A DNA stretch of 43,495 nucleotides from a bacterium (GTDB lineage: Bacteria; Gemmatimonadota; Glassbacteria; GWA2-58-10). Below, piece after piece: positions 1-5,460 of this stretch. The notes under the pieces were generated by a model. The model worked only from the letters and a program-made list of their open reading frames with translations, did no database searches and was not told the origin of the DNA. The translations under genes and the position numbers were made by a program. Numbering within the stretch: position 1 is the stretch's first letter; each line of letters begins with the position of its first letter. Where the stretch lies: NCBI GenBank assembly GCA_021372515.1, contig JAJFUG010000040.1:1-43495 (forward strand). The letters run 5' to 3'.

Positions 1-3
1 TCG

Positions 4-195
4 ATGAACTGGCCGCCAGCTACGCGGCATGACATGGGAGCCGCTCAGATGAAAAACCGAGAGCAGGGCAAGGCGCATCGAGAAAAGCGATTTCGCACGC
101 TCACTGAGCGCAAGGCCGCCAGCAAGTACGGCAACTTCCTGGCCGATCAGATCAGCGGCCCGAACAGTCCATACCGGAAACCGAGGGCAAAATGA
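4..195 (+). CDS. Small hypothetical protein, possibly 5'-truncated
   Basis: This is a very basic reading frame of at most 63 residues, rich in Lys and Arg, with no recognisable domain. The frame is open to the window edge, so the true start may lie upstream; an internal ATG at 49 is an alternative. Its stop overlaps the start of the next gene (ATGA-type overlap at 192-195). Such translational coupling is the main reason to believe it is real. It belongs to the phage-like element at the left of the window. I do not recognise the family. Confidence 0.45.
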   Translation: MNWPPATRHDMGAAQMKNREQGKAHREKRFRTLTERKAASKYGNFLADQISGPNSPYRKPRAK

Positions 196-578
196 GACAG
201 TCGGAACTCGATCTTGAAGCCCGTATCGAGCGCATCGAGGAAATCCTGGGAACGATAGTCGACCTGGAGGCATTCGACAAGAAGTGGTGCGTCCTGAGAG
301 CCAACCGGCTTATGATCCTGAACACTTCCGGCCAGATGCGGGCCGCTCTGACAGTGAATAAGCACCAGGACAAAGGTAATGGCGCTCTCTACCTCTGGGA
401 CCGGAGCGGCAACTTACAGGCGTCCTTGTTCGCTGTCCCGGATGTGGGCGGCCAGCTTTCGCTCTTCTCTCCTGACGAACTGAGGAAAGTCGCGGTCGGG
501 GTGGATTCGACCGGCGACGGCAGAGTCAAGACCTTCAACGACGAGGTAAGCAGCATGGTTCCGGTATTCGACCGGTAA
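192..578 (+). CDS. Hypothetical coiled-coil plus beta-repeat protein (paralogue 1)
   Basis: The protein has 128 residues. Residues about 5-20 form a short amphipathic helix (LEARIERIEEIL) typical of a trimeric coiled coil. The rest is a run of short predicted beta strands separated by Gly/Asp/Asn turns, with recurring phrases such as 'LYLWDRSGNLQASL' and 'VGVDSTGDGRVKTF'. The same architecture recurs in the next gene (703-1128), so the two look like diverged duplicates. Glycine-turn repeats after a coiled coil occur in trimeric fibre proteins and in many uncharacterised bacterial proteins. A fibre or decoration role on the adjacent capsid is possible but only inferred. It starts inside the stop codon of the preceding gene. 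Confidence 0.65.
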   Translation: MRQSELDLEARIERIEEILGTIVDLEAFDKKWCVLRANRLMILNTSGQMRAALTVNKHQDKGNGALYLWDRSGNLQASLFAVPDVGGQLSLFSPDELRKVAVGVDSTGDGRVKTFNDEVSSMVPVFDR

Positions 579-702
579 AAACAATGGCCCGGTGAAAGTT
601 CGAGGCTTCCACCGAGCCGGCGTCTGCAACGGCTAAACTTGGTGGCCAGCCGAAGCAGACAACACGATCATACACCCGGGCCGCCGGGGGGTCAAGAGGT
701 TC

Positions 703-1128
703 ATGTATGACGAGGTTGCAGAGGTACGAGAGCGCCTTGAGCGCGTGGAAGAGCTTCTTCAGTCGTTCGTGTTTCAGAGAGAGAAGAGCGGCGGGATCAT
801 CCTGAAGGTGTCGGAACTGTGGATTGTGAACCAGGCGGGACAGAGGCGAGTCCACCTTGCCGAGTCCGCCAACCTCAAGGGGGGCAACATCCGGCTCTAC
901 GACCGAGGGGGCAACATCCAGATCGGTCTTGGAGCGGACAACGACAGCGGGGGAGTCGTGGCAGTCTACAGTCCGGACGGTGGAGTCAAGGCAAGGATGG
1001 ACGTTGACCAGCACGGCAACGGAGAGATGGAAGTGTGCGGGCCCGACGGCATGGCATTCGTGGGAGTGAGTCACTACTCGAAGAGCGGCATCGTTTCGTT
1101 CTACGGTCCGCGAAAGGAAGGCTGGTAA
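703..1128 (+). CDS. Hypothetical coiled-coil plus beta-repeat protein (paralogue 2)
   Basis: This 141-residue protein starts at an ATG preceded by AGAGG about 4 bases upstream. Its N-terminal helix (VRERLERVEELLQ) is followed by repeated strand-turn units: 'GNIRLYDRGGNIQIGLG', 'GGVVAVYSPDGGVKARMD', 'GEMEVCGPDGMAFVGVS'. Each unit has a D/G-x-x-G turn and a strand of alternating hydrophobic residues. The layout matches the protein at 192-578. There is no signal peptide or membrane segment. Function is unknown; the phage-like surroundings suggest an element-encoded structural or fibre-like protein, but the repeat type is not specific to phages. Confidence 0.65.
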   Translation: MYDEVAEVRERLERVEELLQSFVFQREKSGGIILKVSELWIVNQAGQRRVHLAESANLKGGNIRLYDRGGNIQIGLGADNDSGGVVAVYSPDGGVKARMDVDQHGNGEMEVCGPDGMAFVGVSHYSKSGIVSFYGPRKEGW

Positions 1129-1240
1129 AACTGCCCTGTGAGCGACGATCTCCACTCACGGACATGGTACGACCAGGGCGGCGGTGAGATCGTGCAGCCT
1201 GGGCCGCCGCTCGAAGAGCTTCGGCAATCGACAGAGGGGA

Positions 1241-1391
1241 TAGGGGGATTGAATCATGCCGGGGATGATGGTTCCAGACCGACGGACCAGTCGAGAACGA
1301 AAACTCGCAAGTTTTGAGGGGGGGGGAGTCCCCCTCCACTCGGTAGGGGTAGGGGGGATCAAATCACGCGGAGAAAAAGGCTTCCAGACCG
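1241..1391 (+). repeat. Pair of imperfect ~40-base direct repeats
   Basis: Copy 1 is at 1241-1281 and copy 2 at 1350-1391. Both begin TAGGGGG(G)AT, continue with an AATCA core, and end TTCCAGACCG. They differ at several positions in between. The spacer holds a G9 run followed by a C5 run (about 1318-1336) that could form a short hairpin. The repeats lie between the coiled-coil genes and the capsid module. Confidence 0.55.
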
Positions 1392-1639
1392 CTACCCCAG
1401 GCTTGCTTACAGTCGGTCAAAATGAAGACAGGGGGTCAAAATCGAAAAGGGCTTGAAAAATAAGCAGTTAAGTGTTGTTTGAGAAGGTAAGAAAAAAGTT
1501 AAGTGGAGAAATCACAGTAGGTTGAAGAGTCGAATGTTGAAGGAAAAGGGCCATTTTAAGGCGAAAAAGGCAGGAAAAAGAGCTTTATTAGCGAGTGCAA
1601 AGACACAACCACTTTAAAAATAAACGAGTTGTAGAGTTT

Positions 1640-1655
1640 GAAAACGGACGTTTTC
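1640..1655. promoter_or_regulatory. Inverted repeat, candidate operator upstream of the capsid genes
   Basis: GAAAACG (1640-1646) and CGTTTTC (1649-1655) form a perfect 7-base inverted repeat with a 2-base centre, about 130 bases upstream of the prohead protease start. It overlaps a poor promoter-like pair (TTGAAA at 1638, TAAGAA at 1659, spacer only 15). A phage-type repressor operator is plausible but unproven. Confidence 0.35.
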
Positions 1656-4135: not shown

Positions 4136-4179
4136 TTCATACTTCTCGCGCAGGAAGGGTGCGCGGGGAGGGGGAGACT

Positions 4180-5268
4180 ATGAGCCGTTTCACAGTCAAC
4201 ACCAGGTTCCGCCCCGGTTCCGGCACGTGGACCCTGGACTACTTCAACCCTGAGGGCCGCAGGAGACAGCTTTCAGGCGGGAAGGACGAGCAGCAGGCTC
4301 GACGTCTGGCCGTGAAGTTCACCGACTGGCTGATGGAGGGCAAGGATCCCGAAACCGAGATCGAGCGGGCCAGGAAGGTGGCCGAGCGAAAGCAAGTCAC
4401 ATTCGGCGAGCTGATCCCGACCTTCCTCGAACGATACGGCAAGTACCAGAGCCAGGGTCAGCAGAGGAACTATCGAGCGATCATCGACAACCTCAAGCGG
4501 TGCCCTCAGTTGATCGACTGCCCCGCCGAAGAGCTCAGGAAAAGCATGGTCCTTGAGTACATGCGGCTCAGGATGGAACAGCATCATGTGAAGGCGTCCA
4601 CGGTGAACCACGAGGCTGACTTCATTTCCAGCGTGCTCAACCGGGCCGTGGAATGGGACATGCTCGATCGCAACCCGCTCCAGGGGATGAAGAGGTTCAA
4701 GGCGGCCGGCAAGCGGGACGTGTACCTGAGTCCGGAGCAGCTTTCCAGTCTGATCAACGCCCTGCCGTCCAGACTGGCGGACATGGCCGAGTTCGCGGCC
4801 TACACCGGGTTTCGGCTTGGAAACATCCTGACCCTGAGAATCAACCATGTGCGTTTCCACGATCTGACCAAGACCGGAGAGGCAGACCTGGTGATCAAGG
4901 GGGGAAGGCTCGAAACCTTCCCGCTTTCACAGCCCGCAGTGGAGGTTGTGCAGCGAGTGACCGAGGGCCGGAAAGAGGGCTACGTGTTCATCAACCCGGA
5001 GAACGGCAAGCCGTTCGCTCGCTCCGGGATAAACGCCTTCTACAGACACGTCCGCATTCTCGGCCTGAAGGCGAAGGACGGAAGCCCGCTGAGGTTTCAC
5101 GATCTCCGGCACGTCTACGCGACCACGCTGCGCGACATGGGGATCAGCCTGGATGATCTTCGGGTGCTCCTGGGACACAAGGACAGATCGACCACGGACA
5201 GGTACGTGACCTATGACCGGAAGGCGGTGGGTGAATGCCTCACAGGCTTGAAAAGGCTCAGGAAATGA
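4180..5268 (+). CDS. Tyrosine-type site-specific recombinase (integrase)
   Basis: This 362-residue phage-type integrase has an N-terminal arm-binding-like part, a SAM-like core-binding domain (about 75-170), and a catalytic domain with every expected residue: Arg in YTGFRLGN, Lys in VIKGGR, His-x-x-Arg in RFHDLRHVYATTL, His in LLGHKD, and the nucleophile Tyr in DRYVTY. I chose ATG 4180 because GGGGAGGGGGAG lies just upstream; an ATG at 4132 overlapping the excisionase stop is the alternative. The gene ends about 120 bases from the 3' end of tRNA-Gly, as expected for an element integrated at that tRNA. All catalytic residues are intact, so the enzyme may be active. Confidence 0.95.
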   Translation: MSRFTVNTRFRPGSGTWTLDYFNPEGRRRQLSGGKDEQQARRLAVKFTDWLMEGKDPETEIERARKVAERKQVTFGELIPTFLERYGKYQSQGQQRNYRAIIDNLKRCPQLIDCPAEELRKSMVLEYMRLRMEQHHVKASTVNHEADFISSVLNRAVEWDMLDRNPLQGMKRFKAAGKRDVYLSPEQLSSLINALPSRLADMAEFAAYTGFRLGNILTLRINHVRFHDLTKTGEADLVIKGGRLETFPLSQPAVEVVQRVTEGRKEGYVFINPENGKPFARSGINAFYRHVRILGLKAKDGSPLRFHDLRHVYATTLRDMGISLDDLRVLLGHKDRSTTDRYVTYDRKAVGECLTGLKRLRK

Positions 5269-5272
5269 AAAA

Positions 5273-5297
5273 CCCCGGAGGGGTGTCCGGGGCTTTC
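5273..5297 (+). terminator. Intrinsic-type terminator after the integrase
   Basis: CCCCGGA (5273-5279) pairs with TCCGGGG (5286-5292) around GGGGTG, preceded by AAAAA and followed by CTTTCG. It lies 5 bases after the integrase stop codon. Confidence 0.75.
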
Positions 5298-5318
5298 GTC
5301 TATCGGGTCTGTTACGTA

Positions 5319-5359
5319 TTGTTACACTTGACCTTCCGACGTTCAGCCTTGTGTAACAA
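5319..5359. repeat. Inverted repeat between integrase and tRNA-Gly (possible recombination or operator site)
   Basis: TTGTTACAC (5319-5327) and GTGTAACAA (5351-5359) are perfect 9-base inverted arms 23 bases apart. A further GTTAC lies at 5311-5315, in direct orientation with the left arm. The site is between the integrase and the tRNA 3' end, where integrase or excisionase arm sites are expected. A minus-strand promoter-like pair (TTGACA at 5377-5382, TTGTTA at 5354-5359, 17-base spacer) overlaps the right arm. Confidence 0.5.
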
Positions 5360-5385
5360 CCGTCTTCTCAAACCCTTGTCAATTC

Positions 5386-5460
5386 TGGAGCGGGCGATGG
5401 GACTCGAACCCACGACGTCCAGCTTGGGAAGCTGACATTCTACCGCTGAATTACGCCCGC
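5386..5460 (-). tRNA. tRNA-Gly (anticodon CCC), likely attachment site
   Basis: Read on the minus strand, the gene starts GCGGGCG and ends CGCCCGC-T-CCA, a perfect 7-bp acceptor stem with encoded CCA (5386-5388). The T arm contains GGTTCGAGTCC. The anticodon loop is TTCCCAA inside a 5-bp stem (TCAGC/GCTGG, last pair T-G), so the anticodon is CCC, reading GGG. Its 3' end faces the integrase, so the element to the left has probably integrated here and restored the tRNA end. The matching second copy of the 3' end would lie left of position 1. Confidence 0.95.

Follow-up and report, generated by a model that had tools for sequence, protein, structure and literature searches.

A protease-capsid pair at a recurrent tRNA-Gly integration site in a Glassbacteria genome, probably the integrase-proximal remnant of a prophage or prophage-derived island

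The cfPICIs carry portal and connector genes, both terminase subunits and an HNH gene (PMC10690885). In SaPIbov5, Ccm redirects phi12 capsids (PMC8569155). The assignable genes of phiBN42_1 are those for integrase, excisionase, primase, prohead protease and capsid (PMC3986857). The element described here lies at the start of a Glassbacteria contig of 43,495 nucleotides (C40), the whole of which, from its first base, constitutes the window analysed. Like the cfPICIs, the element has its own capsid and protease and integrates by means of an integrase; unlike theirs, its visible part (window 1-5385) holds no TerS, TerL, portal, connector or HNH gene, and a cfPICI was set aside for this part. With SaPIbov5 the visible part shares an HK97-fold capsid homologue in an integrated element without its own portal. 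Ccm differs in that it works alone in a defined SaPI, with no matching protease gene named, and in that its helper and its redirecting activity are proven, whereas here both would be hypothetical. phiBN42_1 and similar small mycobacterial prophage-like elements, likened to it by their gene descriptions, have the same recognisable genes and no portal or terminase named; phiBN42_1 differs in being bounded on both sides, in having a primase and in its gene order.

The assembly (G000) is 99.5% complete and consists of 222 contigs, the end of one of which cuts the element at base 1. The first 5.4 kb carry, on the plus strand, a cut reading frame, two small paralogous genes, a gene-free stretch, protease, capsid, a short junction, an HTH gene, an integrase gene and a terminator-like hairpin; tRNA-Gly(CCC) follows on the minus strand.

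1..195, plus strand: reading frame cut by the contig end, 64 amino acids visible, no family match
192..578, plus strand: p128, a beta-repeat protein with an N-terminal coiled-coil-like helix, paralogue of p141, no family match
703..1128, plus strand: p141, paralogue of p128, no relatives found
1129..1782, no strand: gene-free stretch of 654 bp, no credible gene
1783..2433, plus strand: HK97-family prohead protease (S78), 216 amino acids, open frame (PF04586, E 2e-35; TIGR01543, E 7e-41)
2446..3627, plus strand: HK97-fold major capsid protein, 393 amino acids (PF05065, E 5e-32; phrog_617, E 3e-74)
3628..3877, no strand: junction of 250 bp between capsid and HTH genes; strong G+C hairpin at about 3826-3853
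3878..4135, plus strand: excisionase-like HTH_17 protein, 85 amino acids (HTH_17, E 1e-8)
4132..5268, plus strand: tyrosine integrase, open frame (PF00589, E 2e-24; phrog_1, E 1e-59)
5273..5292, plus strand: terminator-like hairpin 3′ of the integrase gene
5382..5430, no strand: putative attachment core, from the tRNA-Gly 3′ end to the anticodon loop, repeated at G000:C194:12465-12512
5386..5460, minus strand: complete tRNA-Gly(CCC), the integration target

The initial annotation had described a protease-capsid pair, an excisionase-like gene and an intact integrase at tRNA-Gly, and the matches to PF04586, PF05065, HTH_17 and PF00589 confirm this description. All four frames are open and normal in length. 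It is equally correct that the place of portal and terminase genes is occupied by a non-coding stretch (654 bp, at 1129-1782) and two paralogues (p128 and p141, 31-32% identity, E 8e-13). The G+C content of window 1-5385 is 0.578, as compared to 0.573 in a prophage elsewhere in the same genome (contig C57) and 0.636 in the remainder of the window's contig. The tRNA is the single over-threshold Rfam match in window 1-5900. A weak match to the twister-sister ribozyme at window 5555-5659 (25.7 bits, for a gathering score of 34) is probably due to chance.

Translation of the protease probably begins at the ATG at 1783 and not at 1705; homology to other phages begins at the former. The protein is 75% identical to its counterpart in an ordinary phage contig (L069), the DNA being 77% identical; dN/dS for this pair is about 0.13, a value that mostly reflects the functional phage lineage. 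DNA homology to this contig spans window 1792 to 2541, from the protease start to the first ~30 capsid residues, and nothing to the left of 1792 aligns to it. Related phages of known sequence have the portal gene directly beside that of the protease. At the present locus, the 1.8 kb left of the protease contain nothing portal-like. The gene-free part of this segment is A+T-rich, its G+C content falling to 0.42 from about 0.60 in its surroundings, and its plus strand is purine-rich from about position 1440 onward; neither an RNA family nor a remnant of a portal gene was detected in it. Two 47-nt direct repeats, at 1235 and 1345 (window 1235-1391), are 72% alike and 110 bp apart. Further left, the p128/p141 pair is the least explained feature of the element. 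No relative of p141 was found in 395 genomes of the phylum, in phages, in plasmids or in IMG/VR; the pair is without relatives in the collections searched. The AlphaFold model of p141 (pLDDT 44) was too poor for use.

Residues 112-386 of the capsid protein match the mature chain of PDB 8gta, and the ~110 residues that precede this chain would, from their position, form a scaffold-like region. The AlphaFold model (pLDDT 42) was again too poor for use. Sequenced phages such as RcCronus and PPpW-3 have capsids 35-39% identical to this one; in these, protease and capsid are joined in one gene. A mosaic joint is apparent near the start of the capsid gene (window 2446-2541), where the first ~30 residues are L069-like and all that follows is of a different capsid family. 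Of the 395 genomes of the phylum that were searched, seven others have capsid relatives. Their contexts, as far as readable from simple gene calls and leaving out G223 and G189, are those of ordinary phages, with portal- and terminase-like genes upstream. A scan of genome contigs with the capsid returned one phage-like locus. An encapsulin was set aside, given that the neighbouring genes encode a matching S78 protease and an integrase.

HK97-type capsid and protease can assemble into shells without other proteins, and a capsid particle domesticated and kept by the host, as raised in the initial annotation, would draw on the intact protease-capsid pair and on the A+T-rich upstream stretch, which could hold a promoter. 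The pair occurs in one genome and is absent from the five others of the family, an intact integrase gene beside a tRNA gene has stayed with it, and neither a cargo gene nor a conserved neighbourhood is seen; we thus hold domestication to be very improbable.

No portal, terminase or tail gene was found in window 1-5385. Two portal families (PF04860 and PF05136) and two large terminase families (PF03354 and PF05876), which are those used by phages related to the protease and capsid, were then searched across the assembly. Convincing matches were confined to contig C57; PF05876 gave two matches below cut-off, one in C57 and one in C93. The earlier claim of an element without terminase, portal or tail genes therefore stands for the visible 5.4 kb and, for the four portal and terminase families, extends to the assembly, over-threshold matches being restricted to C57. 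This is evidence, not proof, that the packaging genes are absent, as gaps and other families remain. The element could be an ordinary intact prophage that has an unusual gene order or has acquired a p128/p141 cassette, with its portal, terminase and tail genes on another contig or past the contig break: it is truncated at base 1, an assembly in 222 contigs has many gaps, and the assembly-wide search covered four families. The first 37 bases of the window do not recur anywhere in the assembly, and no short overlap was found between the left end of the window and stretches of C194, C57 and C72. We consider an intact prophage unlikely, since the families used by related phages turn up in C57 alone, nothing resembling a portal stands in the 1.8 kb before the protease, and tail and early genes are also missing from between capsid and HTH, their place in C57.

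The C57 prophage (C57:1176-44067; L065, L026, L027) is a complete HK97-type prophage of about 42.8 kb at tRNA-Arg(ACG). It is bounded by this tRNA and a 47-bp repeat that covers the tRNA from anticodon loop to 3′ end. Since the two copies of the repeat are identical, the prophage seems to be a recent arrival and may be active. Behind the lysin gene at one end follow TerS, TerL, portal, protease, capsid, tail, early genes, HTH and integrase (lysin, tail and TerS being labelled by sequence resemblance and position, not by HMM), with the structural genes, HTH and integrase on one strand. The window element has the same succession of protease-capsid and HTH-integrase, in the same order and strand, and likewise occupies a tRNA site with a core extending from anticodon loop to 3′ end. 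Unlike its visible part, the C57 prophage has TerS, TerL, portal, tail, lysin and early genes as well as identical attachment copies, and its capsid and HTH genes are 29.7 kb apart, as opposed to 250 bp in the window. The two integrases are 32% identical. Comparison of window 1-4140 with the C57 prophage by tblastx and blastn gave merely scattered short matches of no value.

Taken with the rest, this layout makes a remnant the best reading: the element would be what a deleted prophage has left at its integrase end, or an island of prophage origin, at a hotspot of repeated integration. We assign this reading a probability of about 0.62. Of the three options entertained in the initial annotation, the decayed prophage is the best supported, because the same genome has a complete, collinear prophage with a related integrase/HTH module at its end, because homology does not extend past the protease start towards the portal side, and because the assembly has no second portal or large terminase of the families searched. 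The capsid-forming island finds no support in the visible part, and the domesticated particle is left without support. Against a remnant, it must be said that none of the four genes for protease, capsid, HTH and integrase is damaged, as would be unusual after long decay, to which the protease dN/dS against L069 may be added with the reservation made above; that the contig ends at base 1 and the missing genes could sit in the gap; and that the p128/p141 pair has no explanation in such a reading.

The undamaged genes lend themselves to another interpretation, in which a satellite has retained a capsid and protease of its own so as to remodel or add to the head of a helper and obtains portal, terminase and tail from a C57-like phage. 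A potential helper, the complete C57 prophage, is present in the same genome, and portal-less satellites with capsid homologues are known (Ccm, PMC8569155), as is the gene set of phiBN42_1 (PMC3986857). In the HTH-integrase module, the first gene probably starts at 3878, and its product scores below cut-off with the excisionase-domain model TIGR01764; the integrase translation shows the motif residues R, K, HxxR, H and Y, and no relative of it was found in IMG/VR. Several further integrated elements of the family, located at tRNA-Pro and tRNA-Arg genes, share the module. In favour of a satellite, the nearest HTH relative (68% identity) belongs to another integrated element, that of G001, and among the visible genes of this element none can be recognised as structural. 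Located at tRNA-Pro (G001:C163, 914-4725; L080), the latter comprises two HTH genes, a gene for a 557-aa protein without family match and an integrase gene; it is cut by the contig start and is possibly a small satellite or plasmid-like element. In G004 (contig C88; L081) a related integrase adjoins a tRNA-like tRNA-Pro(GGG) prediction, with a HerA/FtsK-like ATPase gene and a GmrSD-type restriction gene nearby.

Several features of the window speak against a satellite. One sees no gene for replication, regulation or the redirection of packaging, the body of the capsid belongs to a different family from that of C57 and is not its obvious partner, the arrangement has no second copy in the 395 genomes of the phylum, and a gene-free stretch of 654 bp would be unusual in a compact satellite. 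The satellite interpretation, the main alternative to a remnant, is doubtful on these grounds; its more specific form, an active satellite made of protease, capsid, excisionase, integrase and two novel beta-repeat proteins and relying on the resident phage for portal, terminase and tail, we judge decidedly unlikely.

The initial annotation expected a second copy of the tRNA-Gly 3′ end to the left. Extension in that direction ends at the contig end, and a displaced copy was found on contig C194: 48 nt of the tRNA-Gly 3′ half, 96% identical to the tRNA core with one gap. It lies between an excisionase-like gene (40% identical to that of the window) with element debris on one side and a polysaccharide biosynthesis cluster on the other. 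C194 has no more of the tRNA than this, and the window holds the one full tRNA-Gly(CCC) found; the C194 copy is therefore best read as the displaced left attachment site of an insertion at the window's tRNA, a linkage that we infer. The cluster (C194, 1-11747; L005) includes genes for a flippase, methyltransferases, an asparagine synthase, an epimerase and a glycosyltransferase. If the copy is indeed a left attachment site, the cluster would sit inside the integrated region, and it may have been carried by an island inserted at this tRNA-Gly, possibly in a tandem array. Among four related genomes with the site, the DNA left of tRNA-Gly is not conserved, the flanks differing in every genome, and in two of them (G003 and G004) fragments of a similar integrase gene, now degenerate, lie to the left of this tRNA. 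The tRNA-Gly(CCC) site is a recurrent integration hotspot.

For the remnant, the following course of events can be proposed. An HK97-type temperate prophage, or an island derived from one, would have inserted at the 3′ half of tRNA-Gly(CCC), its integrase recombining the core between anticodon loop and tRNA 3′ end. Such an insertion would account for the complete tRNA found on the integrase side and would have left a displaced partial copy on the other, for which the C194 sequence is the candidate. An old insertion fits, as the C194 copy differs from the tRNA core while the copies in C57 are identical. The ancestor was presumably laid out as in C57, with terminase, portal, protease, capsid, tail, early genes, HTH and integrase in succession. 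One loss would have removed everything between capsid and HTH; another would have removed portal and terminase up to the protease start, unless these were replaced by p128/p141 and gene-free DNA. If expressed, the surviving protease and capsid would yield empty proheads at most. Integrase and HTH are possibly functional, in which case the element might excise; it would not be able to package itself. Given repeated integration at this site, elements of different ages may stand one behind another to the left, and the polysaccharide cluster of C194 is perhaps among them.

If the element were a working satellite without portal and terminase, a capsid-protease pair alone could be maintained, and capsid piracy of the Ccm type would extend to another phylum. 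Leftover ends of old integrated viruses and virus-derived islands are common in bacterial genomes. A remnant, the reading that we prefer, would be ordinary, yet it would document repeated integration and loss at one tRNA-Gly gene in a poorly sampled bacterial family.
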